DNA of 37,408 bases from an uncultured cyanobacterium (lineage in GTDB: Bacteria; Cyanobacteriota; Vampirovibrionia; Vampirovibrionales; JAGQHJ01), in contig CALAJO010000081.1 in NCBI GenBank assembly GCA_937922745.1, positions 1 through 37,408 of the forward strand. Direction: 5' to 3'. Position 1 is the stretch's first letter. Every line of letters starts with the position of its first letter. The notes beneath the pieces are model-generated. The model was not told where the DNA came from. It saw only the letters and a list, made by a program, of their open reading frames with translations, and did no database searches. A program made the translations under genes and the position numbers. Positions 1,315-7,915 of this stretch are shown here, piece after piece.

Positions 1315-3027
1315 ATGACCCAACAGGACTTGAGACATCGCAGCCGCAATACGATTGAAGGCCCCAGCCGCGCCCCGCACCGCGCCTTTTACCGCGCAAT
1401 GGGGATGCAGGATGCCGATTTCCAGAAACCGCTGATTGGTGTCGCCTCCACATGGAACGAGGTCACGCCGTGCAATATGACCTTGCATGACCAGGCGATG
1501 CGGGTGAAAGAGGGGGTTCTGGCGCAAGGGGGTATTCCGCGGGAGTTTACGGCAATATCCGTGAGTGACGGGATTGCGATGGGACATGAAGGGATGAAGG
1601 CTTCGCTCATCAGCCGGGATATCATTGCCGATTCCGTTGAGCTGGTGATGCATGGTCACGCCTATGATGCCCTTGTTGGGATTGCAGGCTGCGATAAGAG
1701 CCTGCCGGGGATGATGATGGCCATGGCCCGCCTGAATGTTCCCAGTATTTTTCTTTATGGCGGCACGATCATGCCGGGCAGCCTGGATGGGAAGGATCTG
1801 ACCGTGCAGGATGTGTATGAAGCCGTTGGGGCGTTTGCCGCTGGCCACATAACCGAGGACGAGCTGTACAAGATTGAATGCGCCGCCTGTCCTGGCGCGG
1901 GATCCTGCGGTGGGCAATTTACCGCCAACACCATGGCCTGCGTCGCGGAGGCGATAGGGTTGGCCTTGCCGGGCAGCAGCGCTTATCCGGCCCTTCATCC
2001 CGGCCGCGACGAGGTGAATCGCAAAACGGGCGAAGCCGTGATGAACCTGCTTCGGCTCGACATCCGCCCACGGGATATCCTGACCCGCAAGGCCTTTGAA
2101 AACGCAATCCGGATTGTGGCCGCCACGGGCGGATCGACCAACGCCATCCTGCACTTGCCCGCCCTGGCCAACGAAATTGGGCTCGAACTTTCCCTCAAGG
2201 ATTTTGAACGTCTGTTTAATGAGACGCCGACCTTGGCCGATCTCAAGCCCGGTGGCCGCTATGTGATGAACGACGTTTTCCGCATCGGTGGCGTGCCGGT
2301 TATCCTTAAGGCCTTGCAGGAAGCCGGTTTGCTTCATGAGGACTGCCTCACCGTATCTGGAAAAACCCTGGGCGAAAGCCTGGAAGAGGTGTTTATTCCG
2401 GATGGGCAGGATGTGGTGCTTCATCCTCAGAATGCGTTGAGCAACAGTGGCGGCTTGAAGATGCTTTTTGGCAACCTGGCCCCGGAAGGCGCAGTGGTGA
2501 AAGTCGCCGGTATGAAGCGTTTGGTCCATCGCGGCCCGGCCAAGGTATTCGAGGGAGAGGACGCCTGCTTTGCCGCCATTGAGCGTAACGAGATTGTGGC
2601 GGGCGATACGGTTATCATCCGGTATGAAGGGCCCAAGGGCGGCCCCGGTATGCGCGAGATGCTCAGCGTAACGGCGGCCCTGTATGGCCAAAACCTGGGT
2701 GATAAAGTGGCATTGTTGACGGATGGTCGCTTCAGCGGCGCAACCCGTGGCCTGATGGTGGGCCATGTTTGCCCGGAAGCTTACGTTGGCGGCCCTATTG
2801 CCCTGGTCGAGCCTGGCGACATGATCCTGGTAGATGCCGAAAACGGCGTGCTTTCCATTGAGGTGGATGAAGCCGAACTCGCCCGGCGTCGCTCAAGCTG
2901 GCAACCCCCTGCCATGCTGTATCCTTACGGCGTTTTCTATAAGTACGTCCAGGCGGTGGGCCAGGCCAGCACCGGCGCGATTACCCATCCCGGCCAGCCT
3001 TCAGCCCAGCCTGTTGCTGCGAATTAG
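1315..3027 (+). CDS. ilvD: Dihydroxy-acid dehydratase
   Basis: This enzyme dehydrates 2,3-dihydroxy-isovalerate and 2,3-dihydroxy-3-methylvalerate, the third common step of valine and isoleucine synthesis in the cytosol. The protein has 570 residues, the usual family length. Three cluster cysteines are visible: PCN (C53), GCDKS (C126, with K128 as the probable carbamylated Mg-binding Lys) and GSCGG (C198). The SDG motif is near residue 85 and TGGSTNA lies mid-protein. This Cys pattern fits the IlvD/EDD family; the [2Fe-2S] type is likely, but the cluster type cannot be proven from sequence. ATG 1315 is preceded by a weak GAGAG site. The gene stands apart from ilvBNCA, which has its own promoter and leader. 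No strong terminator follows, so read-through into the leader region is possible. Confidence 0.96.
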
Positions 3028-3206: not shown

Positions 3207-3275
3207 ATGTTTAACCCAATGAACAGCATTATTATTCTCGTGGTGATTATTCTCAGCGGTTATGCCGGTGGGTAA
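3207..3275 (+). CDS. ilv operon leader peptide (attenuator peptide)
   Basis: This is a 22-codon ORF, ATG 3207 to TAA 3273-3275, between a promoter and a rho-independent terminator upstream of ilvB. Residues 8-16 read IIILVVIIL, a run of nine consecutive Ile, Leu and Val residues. These are exactly the end products of the pathway encoded downstream. That is the hallmark of ribosome-mediated attenuation, known from the E. coli ilvGMEDA and ilvBN leaders: shortage of charged tRNA stalls the ribosome in the run and prevents the terminator forming. The ribosome site is poor (AAAGG lies 16 nt upstream), so start efficiency is uncertain; ATG 3219 is an in-frame alternative. The peptide itself is not expected to have another role. 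Confidence 0.8.
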   Translation: MFNPMNSIIILVVIILSGYAGG

Positions 3276-3350
3276 ACGAGACTGTTCATAAAAAAGCAAA
3301 GCAGAATCTCAACAAACCGCCGGCCCTCCAAGGACCGGCGGTTTTGGTTT
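3264..3350 (+). terminator. Attenuator: terminator with competing antiterminator pairing
   Basis: The terminator stem is AAACCGCCGG (3314-3323) with CCGGCGGTTT (3335-3344). It continues past a C-A mismatch by two more pairs to a small loop, and is followed by TTTTGGTTT (3342-3350). The 5' arm CCGCCGGC (3317-3324) can instead pair over 8 bp (one G-U) with GCCGGTGG at 3264-3271, which encodes the last residues of the leader peptide. A ribosome that finishes the peptide would cover 3264-3271 and allow termination. One stalled on the Ile/Leu/Val codons (3228-3254) would leave it free to form the antiterminator. The structure is read from sequence; the mechanism is inferred from known ilv/leu/his attenuators. 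Confidence 0.8.
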
Positions 3351-3398: not shown

Positions 3399-3533
3399 AT
3401 GCAAGCCACCCTTCAAGCCCTTAACAGCCTTCTCAACCAAGTTGCCCTGCTGCTTGGCGTGCGAGTGGGCCTTGAGGTGGTGGTGGCGCCTGTCGGCGTC
3501 GCTCGGATGGAGGGCCGAACCCATGGCCGCTAA
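3399..3533 (+). CDS. Leu/Val-rich 44-residue ORF overlapping the ilvB start
   Basis: ATG 3399 has the best ribosome site of the region, AAAGGAG at 3384-3390 with 8-nt spacing, directly after the attenuator terminator. The ORF runs 44 codons to TAA 3531-3533. It contains 8 Leu and 8 Val but no Ile, concentrated in LLNQVALLLGVRVGLEVVV (residues 11-29). Its last codons overlap the start of ilvB (ATG 3523) by 11 nt in another frame, so translation of ilvB is probably coupled to it. It may be a second regulatory leader acting on ilvB translation, or a real small protein. Its N-terminal half could form an amphipathic or membrane helix. I recognise no family. The start, ribosome site and overlap are seen; the role is inference. 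Confidence 0.65.
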   Translation: MQATLQALNSLLNQVALLLGVRVGLEVVVAPVGVARMEGRTHGR

Positions 3534-5259
3534 TATGCACTCGCCCGAAACCCAGACGAAAACGTTGAACGGCGCGAATATCTTTCTCAGCGCCCTGGTT
3601 GCGGAACAGGTGGATACGATCTTTGGCTTGCCCGGGGGCGTTATCCTCCCCATCTACGATGCCTTGCCGCAGTATCCTTCATTGCGCCATATCCTCGTTC
3701 GTCACGAACAGGGCGCGACCCATATGGCGGAAGGGTATGCCCGCGCCACCGGCAAACCCGGCGTGGTTCTGGTCACTTCCGGGCCTGGCGCCACCAACGT
3801 GGTGACCGGGGTTGCGGATGCGTACTATGACTCCGTGCCGCTAGTGGTGTTTACCGGCAATGTCGCCACCGGTATGCTGGGCAACGATTCCTTCCAGGAA
3901 GCGGATATCGTCGGCATGACCCGCTCCGTGACCAAGCACAACATTATCGTCCACCGGGTTGAAGAACTGGCCGCGGCTATTAAGGAAGCCTTTTACGTGG
4001 CCCGCACGGGGCGTCCCGGCCCGGTACTGGTGGATATGCCGAAAGATGTCCTGCTGGCGACGGCCGAGTTTGATTATGAGGCCACTCCAATCGATCTGCC
4101 GGGTTATGAGCTGAATGAAACCTTTACCGATGCCGATTTGAACGCGCTGTTGCAGATCCTGGGCGAGGCAAAACAGCCGATGATGCTGATCGGCGGCGGT
4201 GTCGTGACTTCCGGTTCCCATGAGGAAGTGTTGGCCTTCGCCGAGCGTTTCAATCTGCCGGTTGCGTCTTCGCTCATGGGCCTGGGTGGGTTCCCTGCCA
4301 ACCATCCGCTTTACCAGGGATTCGCCGGGATGCACGGGCATTACTGGACGAATATTGCCATTGCCAACGCGGATGTATTGCTGGTCGTCGGCAACCGATT
4401 GAACGAGCGGCAGACCGGGAAGGCCGACCGGTTTGCGAAGCACGCCCGCATCATCCATATCGATCTCGATCCGACCTCGCTGAACAAGAATGTTTTGTCC
4501 ACGCTGCCCATCCAGGGCGATATCCGGAACATCATGACGCGTTTGCTGGAGCAATCCAGCCAGATGACACTGGATGCTGAAATCCATGCATCCCGCCAGG
4601 ACTGGTTCCGGATGATTGAAGGCTGGAAGTCTCGCAAGGAAACCAAGGCTTCGCCGGACGGGTTTTTGACCCCGCAGTATGCTATTGAGCGCCTGTTCCA
4701 CTGGTTGCCGCACAATGCCTTTGTGACCACGGAAGTGGGGCAGCACCAGATGTGGACGGCCCAACGCTTTAACCTGTCCCGCCCCAGGAGCTTCATCTCT
4801 TCCGGTGGCTTGGGCACCATGGGGTTTGGCTTCCCGGCGGCCATCGGCATACAAACCGCTTTCCCCGAAGCCATGGTTCTGGATATCGCCGGCGATGGCA
4901 GCTTCCAGATGACGCTGCAAGAGCTGGCCACGGCCCGTGACTACAATTTGCCCGTCAAGGTCGCCATCATCAACAACGGCTACCTGGGCATGGTGCGCCA
5001 GTGGCAAGGGCGCTTTTTCCAGGGTGAGTCCGAAACCCGGATGACCTCGCCCGACTACATCAAGCTGGCGGAAGCTTATGGATGCAAAGGCTTTGTCGTC
5101 GAGCATCCCGAGCAGGTGGATGAGGTTATCCGCCAGGCCTACGCCATTACCGACTGTCCCGTTATCATCGACTTCCGCGTGCAGGAAAAGGCCGATGTCT
5201 ACCCATGGGTGCCGGCCGGGGGCAGTAACGACACCATGCTGACCGAAGATACAAAGTAA
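3523..5259 (+). CDS. ilvB: Acetolactate synthase, large (catalytic) subunit
   Basis: This ThDP-dependent enzyme condenses two pyruvates to acetolactate, or pyruvate with 2-oxobutyrate to acetohydroxybutyrate, the first committed step to Val, Leu and Ile. It has 578 residues from ATG 3523, which has GGAGG at 3509-3513 with 9-nt spacing. An in-frame TTG at 3442 lacks a ribosome site. Visible motifs are the catalytic Glu in HEQGATHMAEGYA (E62), the ThDP/Mg motif GDGS near residues 457-460 with NN at about 484, and MVRQWQ, whose Trp lines the herbicide/FAD region in known AHAS enzymes. Lengths and order match IlvB/IlvG/IlvI. The gene lies behind the attenuator and overlaps the small ORF at 3399-3533. 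ilvN follows after 19 bases. Confidence 0.96.
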   Translation: MAANMHSPETQTKTLNGANIFLSALVAEQVDTIFGLPGGVILPIYDALPQYPSLRHILVRHEQGATHMAEGYARATGKPGVVLVTSGPGATNVVTGVADAYYDSVPLVVFTGNVATGMLGNDSFQEADIVGMTRSVTKHNIIVHRVEELAAAIKEAFYVARTGRPGPVLVDMPKDVLLATAEFDYEATPIDLPGYELNETFTDADLNALLQILGEAKQPMMLIGGGVVTSGSHEEVLAFAERFNLPVASSLMGLGGFPANHPLYQGFAGMHGHYWTNIAIANADVLLVVGNRLNERQTGKADRFAKHARIIHIDLDPTSLNKNVLSTLPIQGDIRNIMTRLLEQSSQMTLDAEIHASRQDWFRMIEGWKSRKETKASPDGFLTPQYAIERLFHWLPHNAFVTTEVGQHQMWTAQRFNLSRPRSFISSGGLGTMGFGFPAAIGIQTAFPEAMVLDIAGDGSFQMTLQELATARDYNLPVKVAIINNGYLGMVRQWQGRFFQGESETRMTSPDYIKLAEAYGCKGFVVEHPEQVDEVIRQAYAITDCPVIIDFRVQEKADVYPWVPAGGSNDTMLTEDTK

Positions 5260-5278
5260 AAAGGAGCGATTGACTGCA

Positions 5279-5617
5279 ATGAAATTCACCTTGTGTTGTC
5301 TGTTACAAAATCGCCTGGGCGCGTTGGATCGCGTTTTGGGCGCACTGACCTACCGCGGGTTCGTCCCCGACAATTTCTATTCCACCTTTGATCAAAAGGC
5401 TGGTTGCCTTCAGGTGGTCGTCACCTTTGAGTGCCAGGAGGAATCCACCTGCCAAAAGCTCGTCAAGTTCCTCGAAAAACAGGTTTACGTCCTTGAAGCC
5501 CGCGCCGAAGCCATGCAGCCGACGGAAAACGTTCAGGTGGTTTCGCTGGCGGACTTCGCCTCATCCGTATTGAATCCCGTTGTTGTAAAAAGGAGAGTTT
5601 CCAATGCCCACAGTTGA
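5279..5617 (+). CDS. ilvN: Acetolactate synthase small (regulatory) subunit, short ACT form
   Basis: This 112-residue protein begins MKFTLCCLLQNRLGALDRVLG and has the ACT-domain layout (RxGxLxRVLGxLTYRGF, then the second beta strand LQVVVTF). It should bind the catalytic subunit, raise its activity and perhaps mediate valine feedback. It is close in length to the E. coli IlvN/IlvM forms and lacks the long C-terminal domain of IlvH-type subunits of about 160 residues. ATG 5279 is chosen over TTG 5270, because AAGGAG at 5261-5266 gives 12-nt versus 3-nt spacing. The last 14 bases overlap ilvC, whose ribosome site lies inside this gene. Whether this short form is inhibited by valine cannot be read from sequence. 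Confidence 0.88.
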   Translation: MKFTLCCLLQNRLGALDRVLGALTYRGFVPDNFYSTFDQKAGCLQVVVTFECQEESTCQKLVKFLEKQVYVLEARAEAMQPTENVQVVSLADFASSVLNPVVVKRRVSNAHS

Positions 5618-6647
5618 TATGCCCCAGAAACTGACGATGTATTACGACAAGGACATCGATCGCAGCCTGCTCCTGTCGAAGAAAATTGCCGTTGTTGGCT
5701 TTGGAAGCCAGGGTTACGGGCAAAGCCTCAACCTCAAGGAATCTGGCGCAAACGTTAAAGTTGCCCTGAGAAAAGGCAGCCCGACCGAGGCTAAGGCAGA
5801 AGCCGCGGGCCTGGGCGTGGTTGCGCTGGAAGAGGTTGCCGACTGGGCTGACGTTGTTGTGTTCCTGATCCCGGATGTTCACCATGGCAAGGTGTACAAG
5901 GATTACTTCGAGGGCCGCCTGAAGAAGGGGCAATCGCTGGTATTTAGCCACGGCTTCAGCGTGCATTACCAGGAAGTGGTTCCGCCTGCGGATGTTAACG
6001 TCTTCCTGATTGCGCCGAAAAGTCCGGGACACCTCGTCCGCTCCGAATATCAGCGGGAGCGCGGCGTACCGGCGTTAATGGCGGTGTACCAGGATGCCAC
6101 CGGCGAAGCCCGTGAGCTGGCGCTGGGTTATGCGGCATGTATCGGTTCCGGCCGCGCAGGCATTATTGAAACCACCTTTAAAGATGAAACCGAAACCGAT
6201 CTCTTCGGGGAGCAGGCCGTGCTTTGCGGTGGCGCCACCTCGCTAGTTAAAGCCGGTTTTGAGACACTGGTTGAGGCCGGTTATCCGCCGGAGCTGGCCT
6301 ACTTTGAGTGTCTCCACGAGTTGAAACTGATTGTGGACTTGATGTACGAAGGCGGCCTGGAGGATATGCGCTATTCTATCAGCGATACCGCGCGTTATGG
6401 CGATGTGACCCGTGGCCCGCGTGTGGTTGGCCCAGAAGTGAAGGAAGCGATGAAAACGGTTCTTGCGGAAATCCAGTCCGGCAAATTCGCCAAGGAATGG
6501 ATTGCCGAGTTCCACGCCGGCCAGCCGAACCTGAAAGCCCTGGTCGAAGCCGATCGCAATCACCCGTTGGAAGTGGTTGGCCATAAACTCCGCGGGATGA
6601 TGACCTGGCTCAAGGATTCCCGCCTCGTCAACCGCGATCGCAATTAA
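5604..6647 (+). CDS. ilvC: Ketol-acid reductoisomerase (class I)
   Basis: This enzyme isomerises and reduces acetolactate and acetohydroxybutyrate with NAD(P)H, the second common step of branched-chain synthesis. The 347 residues fit the short class I form. Domain one is a Rossmann fold with GFGSQGYGQ (residues 32-40) and SHGF with H116. Domain two holds the Mg ligands in DETETDLFGEQ (about D199, E203) and YFECLHELKLIVDLMYEGG (about E235, E239). GRAGIIETTFKDE is typical of the family. GGAG precedes ATG 5604 and the start overlaps the ilvN end, so translation is coupled. A hairpin lies between it and the next gene. Confidence 0.97.
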   Translation: MPTVDMPQKLTMYYDKDIDRSLLLSKKIAVVGFGSQGYGQSLNLKESGANVKVALRKGSPTEAKAEAAGLGVVALEEVADWADVVVFLIPDVHHGKVYKDYFEGRLKKGQSLVFSHGFSVHYQEVVPPADVNVFLIAPKSPGHLVRSEYQRERGVPALMAVYQDATGEARELALGYAACIGSGRAGIIETTFKDETETDLFGEQAVLCGGATSLVKAGFETLVEAGYPPELAYFECLHELKLIVDLMYEGGLEDMRYSISDTARYGDVTRGPRVVGPEVKEAMKTVLAEIQSGKFAKEWIAEFHAGQPNLKALVEADRNHPLEVVGHKLRGMMTWLKDSRLVNRDRN

Positions 6648-6694: not shown

Positions 6695-6733
6695 TCCGAC
6701 CAACACCGTATGCAACCCAAGGAGAAGCAGAAC

Positions 6734-7915
6734 ATGCCCGCACAAACGGAAGACCCCAACCTTTCGTCCTATCGCTCACCAGTCGTCACCCCGGCATCCT
6801 CCATGCTGGATCTGGCGATTGATGAGAAGGGGCGAATTCGGTTGCCGGGTTTCCCGGCGGGCTTATCCATCAACGAATATCTTCCTTTGGTGCATCTCTA
6901 TGCTTCAGTCTTAGAAGCAGACAGGCTTCTGGATTGTTACCGGCCTGTGTTGGGCATGCGCCCGACGAATTCGTTGCAAGCCCCGCTGACGGATTTGAGC
7001 CCTTCCACGCGCACGCAGAACCTCTTTTACAAGCGGGAAGATCAGACGGTGACGCGGGCTTACAAGGTTCGCGGCGCCGTTGTAGGGATGGCCAAGGTGA
7101 TGGAAAGCAATCCGGCGAGCGGCTTCCTGGCCGTATCGACCGGTAACCATGCGCTGGGCGTGTTAAAGGCTGCCGAACTGCTTCGGCCTGACTCCGTACG
7201 GATTGTGGTGCCGGCCAATACGGCGGCGGCAAAAATGGATAAAATTACGGCCCAGGTACAAAACCTGCTGGAGCAAGGCGTCCGGGCGTCGCTGGTGTAT
7301 GCCGGTGAAACCTTTGACGAGGCGCGCGACTGGGCCATGACGTTGAGTGATGGGGAATACTATCTCGATCCCTACAGCGACCCGTGGGTGGTGGCTGGCC
7401 AGGGAACCATCGGCCTGGAGTTGTTCCGGCAGACACGGGCCCTGGTAGCGGATCGGGATATTGAGGAAGTGATGGTGATTTCGCCTATTGGGGGCGGTGG
7501 TTTGCTGGCCGGCACGGCAACGGCCTTTAAAATGGCCGCGGCCTGGGATCAGCGTTTCCGCAACGTGGATCTCCGGTTTACCGGCCTGCGTCTTGAAAAC
7601 CAGGAAACGCTTTATGGCGATGCCATCCGCGTGAATGATGTTGCGGAGGTGAACCGCAAGCTGTTGGATTCGTTAAATGTGGCCGTGATGCCCATTAACG
7701 ATAACATGATGGCCGAAGGCATGCTGGGTGTGAAAGACGACCTGGGTGTTACCGTGGAAGGCCCGAGCGGCGGGACGCTCTATCCTGCACTGCGCTTTGG
7801 CGCCTGCATGCCCACCCGTAAGCGGATGGTGGTTTGTATTCTCAGCGGAGGCAATGCATCCGCGTTTCCCAGCCCGGTGATGCAGCCCCGTCCTTTGGCC
7901 GTATCCGGCTGCTGA
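6734..7915 (+). CDS. ilvA: Threonine ammonia-lyase (threonine deaminase) without regulatory domain
   Basis: This is a PLP enzyme of fold type II. In this operon it most likely converts threonine to 2-oxobutyrate, the isoleucine precursor. It has 393 residues from ATG 6734 (AAGGAG 6719-6724, 9-nt spacing); ATG 6710 is in frame but lacks a ribosome site. Visible features are the Schiff-base Lys in AYKVRGA (K111), the substrate/PLP loop STGNHALG (135-142), the phosphate-binding PIGGGGLLAG (251-260) and a C-terminal SGGN. The N-terminal 90 residues before the catalytic core are longer than in catabolic TdcB-type enzymes, while the C-terminal ACT-like domain that gives isoleucine inhibition in E. 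coli IlvA is absent. Serine dehydratase or serine racemase activity is possible from sequence alone; the ilv context favours IlvA. Confidence 0.85.
   Translation: MPAQTEDPNLSSYRSPVVTPASSMLDLAIDEKGRIRLPGFPAGLSINEYLPLVHLYASVLEADRLLDCYRPVLGMRPTNSLQAPLTDLSPSTRTQNLFYKREDQTVTRAYKVRGAVVGMAKVMESNPASGFLAVSTGNHALGVLKAAELLRPDSVRIVVPANTAAAKMDKITAQVQNLLEQGVRASLVYAGETFDEARDWAMTLSDGEYYLDPYSDPWVVAGQGTIGLELFRQTRALVADRDIEEVMVISPIGGGGLLAGTATAFKMAAAWDQRFRNVDLRFTGLRLENQETLYGDAIRVNDVAEVNRKLLDSLNVAVMPINDNMMAEGMLGVKDDLGVTVEGPSGGTLYPALRFGACMPTRKRMVVCILSGGNASAFPSPVMQPRPLAVSGC

Follow-up and report, generated by a model that had tools for sequence, protein, structure and literature searches.

A putative ribosome-mediated transcription attenuator ahead of ilvB in the Vampirovibrionales

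The ilvB operon and its leader

The window analyzed here, a 37,408-nucleotide stretch of contig CALAJO010000081.1 from an uncultured member of the Vampirovibrionales, carries ilvD and, downstream on the same strand, ilvB, a short ilvN-like gene, ilvC and an ilvA-like gene (Table 1). The ilvN-like gene (5270..5617) had no match in a Pfam search. For the ilvA-like protein, the top NCBIfam matches are threonine ammonia-lyases, below cut-off, and the PLP domain is the only domain found by Pfam. Between ilvD and ilvB lies a short leader ORF whose control codons, at 3228-3254, read ATT ATT ATT CTC GTG GTG ATT ATT CTC, and whose last three codons, GCC GGT GGG (3264-3272), encode the residues AGG ahead of a stop codon at 3273-3275. 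There is no clear Shine-Dalgarno sequence ahead of its ATG at position 3207, alternative in-frame starts are present at ATG 3147 and ATG 3219, and a promoter scan of the forward strand returned nothing above threshold for the leader. The ORF is followed by a terminator hairpin, in which 3314-3323 pair with 3335-3344 around a 3-bp inner stem, and then by an imperfect T-tract, TTTTGGTTT; the generic terminator scan did not list this leader terminator (3314-3349).

Table 1. Positions of the leader elements and of the neighboring genes in the window.
Feature	Position	Strand	Sequence	Evidence or remark
ilvD, upstream gene	1315..3027	+		TIGR00110, above cut-off
Leader peptide ORF	3207..3275	+	MFNPMNSIIILVVIILSGYAGG, then stop	22 codons; I/V/L-rich leader in 9/9 ilvB-linked loci kept
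Outer protector strand	3219..3226	+	ATGAACAG	Pairs with 3282-3289 in the full-length fold
Segment 1	3252..3260	+	CTCAGCGGT	Begins within the final Leu control codon; pairs with 3264-3272
Segment 2 core	3264..3272	+	GCCGGTGGG	Pairing, folds, shuffles, covariation
Antiterminator extension, 5' strand	3278..3286	+	GAGACTGTT	Pairs with 3300-3304 and 3307-3310 with the ribosome on the control codons
Outer protector partner, directly past the stop codon	3282..3289	+	CTGTTCAT	Folds, consensus, covariation
Antiterminator extension, 3' strand	3300..3310	+	AGCAG..TCTC	Fold, covariation
Segment 3, terminator 5' arm	3314..3324	+	AAACCGCCGGC	Pairing, folds, consensus
Segment 4, terminator 3' arm and T-tract	3331..3349	+	AGGACCGGCGGTTTTGGTT	Folds, consensus
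Second small ORF	3399..3533	+	MQATLQALNSLLNQVALLLGVRVGLEVVVAPVGVARMEGRTHGR, then stop	SD AAGGAG, strong; 11-nt overlap with the ilvB start
ilvB, acetolactate synthase large subunit	3523..5259	+		TIGR00118, 721 bits vs cut-off 538
ilvN-like small subunit, short	5270..5617	+		115 aa; TIGR00119, E 2.9e-06, below cut-off
ilvC, ketol-acid reductoisomerase	5604..6647	+		TIGR00465, above cut-off
ilvA-like PLP enzyme, threonine ammonia-lyase-like	6710..7915	+		PF00291

The end of the leader ORF pairs with the terminator arm

The original prediction held that GCCGGTGG at 3264-3271, within the end of the leader peptide, pairs over 8 bp with CCGCCGGC at 3317-3324, the 5' arm of the terminator. The pairing was recovered at exactly these coordinates and includes one G-U pair (3269:3319); its 5' strand falls within the final three leader codons and its 3' strand within the hairpin described above. 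Taken alone, the complementarity is modest and only suggestive evidence: when the leader was dinucleotide-shuffled, 47 of 2000 shuffles (2.4%) reached an 8-bp run to the terminator arm. The 8-bp pairing forms the base of a longer antiterminator, which is found in each of the nine ilvB-linked leaders and which contains a second stem, missed in the original prediction, formed by the two extension strands. Folded to the end of the arm, the window leader has an energy of -23.0 kcal/mol, which 1 of 300 shuffles reaches (z -4.4); for each of the other eight loci, the whole antiterminator fold was reached by none of 300 shuffles.

The response to translation was modeled by blocking all RNA located 5' of the front edge of a ribosome. 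With the ribosome on an Ile or Val codon in the middle of the control run, pairing of segments 2 and 3 (2:3) is the best fold in all nine leaders, at -21.0 to -28.2 kcal/mol, whereas with the ribosome at the stop codon the energy of the antiterminator is 0 to -1.2 kcal/mol, i.e. it is gone, again in all nine. The proposal that a ribosome reaching the stop codon masks the antiterminator thus agrees with the folds. By folding, the antiterminator is also exclusive with the terminator and is open on a stall. At four loci (L003, L004, L005 and L007), a ribosome on codon 22, an Ile codon that adjoins the stop codon, also abolishes the antiterminator in the model, so that a stall at that Ile would leave the switch closed.

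Conservation and covariation among relatives

Among the 18 genomes of the order Vampirovibrionales, 11 were found to have IlvB, and in nine of these 11 the gene is preceded by an I/V/L-rich leader ORF, an antiterminator and a terminator; the leader is absent ahead of ilvB in the other two, G006 and G004 (loci L099 and L101). Two of the nine, L100 and L102, were recognized by reading the upstream listing and not by the scan, whose rules are crude. All nine loci kept contain a short ORF with codon runs for a product of the operon and, between the leader and the first gene, an intrinsic-terminator hairpin, with the T-tract imperfect in the window. The C-terminus of the peptide varies while the RNA is kept, ending in AGG in the window and in LPV in L006, each directly before the stop codon, and reading RPV... 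in L100. The elements, their folds and their conservation are computational results, with the following scope. Alignment-based covariation covers eight of the nine loci, L102 having been dropped as misaligned, while the strand-pairing and permutation counts cover all nine, using strands hand-set from the folds; the leader ORFs of L003, L004 and L005 are identical, which makes the effective depth small.

The core pairing between 3264-3271 and 3317-3324 is retained in relatives: it occurs at the same place in 9/9 ilvB-linked leaders (window included) and runs uninterrupted for 7 to 9 bp. Across the eight aligned leaders, 93.3% of antiterminator cells are paired and 6 of 17 pairs have changed on both sides, a level of covariation that none of 500 shuffles attained; slid controls are 21-44% paired. 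Most of this compensatory change lies in the extension helix (5/9 pairs), and the core helix contributes only 1/8 pairs, where G-C is replaced by C-G and U-A. Wider support for the core pairing comes from this extension helix and from L102, in which the core is wholly replaced (GGCTCGGT/ACCGAGCC) and 8 bp are still paired. When the 3' strands were permuted among the nine loci, the observed core pairing was reached in 13 of 2000 permutations.

These comparisons bear on whether the hairpin could be an ordinary terminator of ilvD, with the short ORF and the complementarity arising by coincidence. Such a terminator would fit the placement of the hairpin between ilvD and ilvB in the window and the frequency with which shuffled leaders reach an 8-bp run. 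However, ilvD does not precede the leader in the relatives checked by position: ilvB and ilvD are located on C172 and C94, respectively, in G002, on C9 and C12 in G013, and on opposite strands of one contig, 3.5 kb apart, in G012. As the leader, segment 2 and the terminator arm nonetheless stay complementary in 9/9 loci, we regard an ilvD terminator as highly improbable.

A conserved protector predicted to sequester segment 2

The original prediction had further described the leader as a simpler, three-element version of an attenuator, which was not borne out, as a 1:2 protector was found that is conserved with compensatory changes. Segments 1 and 2 pair (3252-3260/3264-3272) in the full-length fold and in the consensus of eight leaders, forming an element of CTCA.CGGT with GCCG.TGGG that is closed by an outer stem spanning from near the ORF start to just 3' of the stop codon. 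Together, the 1:2 and outer stems constitute the minimum-energy fold of the full-length window leader as well as the RNAalifold consensus of the eight. In the aligned leaders, 6 of 22 protector pairs have changed on both sides, and 1 of 500 shuffles scores as high. Counted over nine loci, the outer stem has 69/72 cells paired and 4/8 columns changed on both sides, and permutation of the 3' strands reached the observed pairing in 2 of 2000 trials. The outer stem is kept with different letters in both L100 and L102; in L102 the protector is weak, and the outer stem alone is clear.

Since the protector is present and conserved, the classical 1:2, 2:3 and 3:4 pairings all exist. A reduced attenuator with no protector, in which only 2:3 and 3:4 compete, would be in keeping with one feature of the window: in the ribosome-free RNA, before segment 4 has been made, the lowest fold is 2:3 (-31.6) and not 1:2. 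The protector may therefore be weak at equilibrium, and protection of segment 2 would depend on the order of folding. Set against the consensus structure, the two-sided changes in the protector and the retention of the outer stem in divergent loci, the reduced form is improbable.

Proposed mechanism

The leader is very probably a classical ribosome-mediated transcription attenuator that controls the ilvB-ilvN-ilvC-ilvA-like operon. Here we infer leader translation, stalling, termination and the amino acids that are relevant. When charged Ile tRNA (also Val or Leu tRNA) is short, the ribosome would stall at the control codons, leaving 3264-3272 (segment 2) and 3278-3286, past the stop codon, free to pair with 3300-3324; with this region paired upstream, the terminator would be blocked and the operon transcribed. 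When the tRNAs are charged, the ribosome would reach the stop codon and cover segment 2 together with some of 3278-3286, whereupon 3314-3324 would pair with 3331-3344 and transcription would end. With no ribosome on the leader, the protector (3219-3226:3282-3289 and 3252-3260:3264-3272) would hold segment 2, and the terminator would form.

A structured leader that ends in a terminator (fold z -3.9) might also be a T-box or a riboswitch, which binds tRNA or another ligand instead of relying on a ribosome. Contrary to such a reading, the conserved part of the leader is an ORF with I/V/L codons, and a search of the leader against Rfam 15 yielded no family at gathering score, the match to Atu_C9 being sub-threshold (22.1 bits vs a cut-off of 40). 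A ligand- or tRNA-binding element is accordingly hardly credible here. Homology to Atu_C9 itself was rejected, as the base pairs of the match are confined to the terminator.

Comparison with known attenuators

The ribosome-mediated attenuator proposed here resembles the E. coli ivbL-ilvBN and ilvL-ilvXGMEDA leaders (NC_000913.3), which likewise encode an I/V/L leader peptide; the likeness is one of layout and folding, not of sequence comparison, and the leader in the window, with 22 codons vs 32 in E. coli, is the shorter one. The same computation applied to E. coli places the antiterminator strand of ivbL, GCGCCG, in the last two leader codons, and that of ilvL, GTGCGGGG, at nt 66-73, inside the ORF. 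In both leaders the antiterminator is open on a control-codon stall and gone at the stop codon, as in the window. A segment 2 located in the leader codons is thus normal for ilv leaders, and the contrast that the original prediction drew with the enterobacterial ilv leaders was mistaken. The window differs in this respect from E. coli trpL, where the same method places the antiterminator strand directly past the stop codon.

Similar arrangements have been described in other bacteria. The Corynebacterium ilvB-II motif or ilvBNC attenuator is described as combining, ahead of ilvB, a uORF rich in branched-chain amino acid (BCAA) codons, an antiterminator and a terminator (PMC10272879, PMC11857589), and a 2025 paper on Corynebacterium argues for an anti-antiterminator, antiterminator and terminator (PMC11857589). 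This motif belongs to another phylum, and its leader peptide is given as usually 15-17 aa (PMC10272879). The ilvB-OMG and Leptospira ilvB motifs are also reported to have a BCAA-rich uORF before ilvB, with attenuation proposed (PMC10272879); they are like the window by description, not by alignment.

The mechanism proposed is the textbook one, with a layout as in E. coli, and the novelty lies in the lineage and in the retuned copies described below. A 2010 survey states that, before its own case in Firmicutes, it knew of no leader-peptide system beyond Proteobacteria and Actinobacteria (PMC2965389). No leader-peptide attenuation in Melainabacteria, the group in which we place the window's order, or in cyanobacteria more widely that would cover this group was described in the openly licensed literature searched, an absence that carries little weight; one paper that mentions both Melainabacteria and a leader peptide appears from its abstract to concern a modified peptide. 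With leaders before ilvB, ilvA-like and trpE genes, the range of classical attenuation would come to include the non-photosynthetic sister group of cyanobacteria.

A second small ORF and retuned copies of the leader

A second small ORF lies between the terminator and ilvB in eight of the nine loci and in every case shares 11-14 nt with the start of ilvB; its Shine-Dalgarno sequence is purine-rich in most of the eight. Runs of V and L occur in six of the eight, reading VVVLLLG...RVVV in the commonest genus, and are not clear in L098 and L100. In the closer pairs, changes fall most often at third codon positions, consistent with an ORF that is translated. Its position equals that of ilvX, the small ORF that follows ilvL and precedes ilvG in E. 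coli. The plain reading is translational coupling to ilvB; that the ORF acts as a sensor of Val and Leu is conjecture.

A covariance model built from the eight leaders was run on 382 genomes of the class, including those of L103-L121, and gave matches in 11 of them; it missed L102 (G008) and so does not reach every member. A strong match (E 6e-9) was obtained on the reverse strand of L224 (G009), where a leader beginning at about base 1501 of the reverse complement, MNTLINSIQIIIMLTASPVSSDCC followed by a stop codon, has a run of Ile only and sits directly 5' of an ilvA-like gene; no ilvB was detected in this genome. Weaker matches include L227, in the window's own genome (C48 12884-13033, reverse strand), with the peptide MFLTAYNFAGMMMCPMLPRRIG, also closed by a stop codon, and a Met/Cys run, MMMCPM, ahead of a 443-aa protein for which a Pfam search gave no match. 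L226 (G276, from another family; E 0.0016) has an Ile-rich leader before an uncharacterized protein, and L009/L225 (G001) lies ahead of an uncharacterized gene and has an attenuator-like fold. The folds of L225, L226 and L227 are all open on a stall and closed at the stop codon. The further entries are L228 and L229, the latter being the opposite strand of G013's own leader.

Among 20 trpE loci scanned, four from one genus (L177, L179, L180 and L181) have trp leaders with WWW and a terminator; their folds are also open on a stall and closed at the stop codon, and the antiterminator has its 5' strand (GGCCTG-like) within the leader codons. Among these 20 loci, none with a trp leader of this kind comes from the window's own genome, and inspection of 14 leuA and 20 ilvD loci in the order revealed no leader-peptide attenuator. 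The codon run seems to track the downstream gene (ilvB, ilvA-like, trpE), giving a natural series. A more elaborate scheme, which we consider doubtful, would stack two steps at ilvB, an Ile-weighted attenuator and a Val/Leu-rich ORF that couples ilvB translation to Val and Leu, and would have the module re-used, with its codon run retuned, before ilvA-like, trpE and some unknown genes.

A wider ORF-only scan, crude in its rules, considered ATG starts and dense I/L/V within 600 nt upstream of ilvB at 80 loci, ignoring terminators (L025, L051, L071 and L077 had <600 nt of upstream sequence). It gave one accepted leader, L012, which belongs to a Vampirovibrio MAG; the ORFs listed at 19 further loci were not taken as leaders. 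Forty upstream regions from the class contained no leader followed by a terminator, and a wide distribution of the ilvB leader was rejected on these two counts. In some Rhizobiales among the 80 loci, Rfam Atu_C8 occurs before ilvB (L070, L072 and L074), which may be another leader system. In large genomes from another family of the class (L150, L152 and L156), a strong hairpin, CGCTGAAC..GTTCAGCG, with a T-run is located 14-89 nt before ilvB and is possibly another attenuation system.
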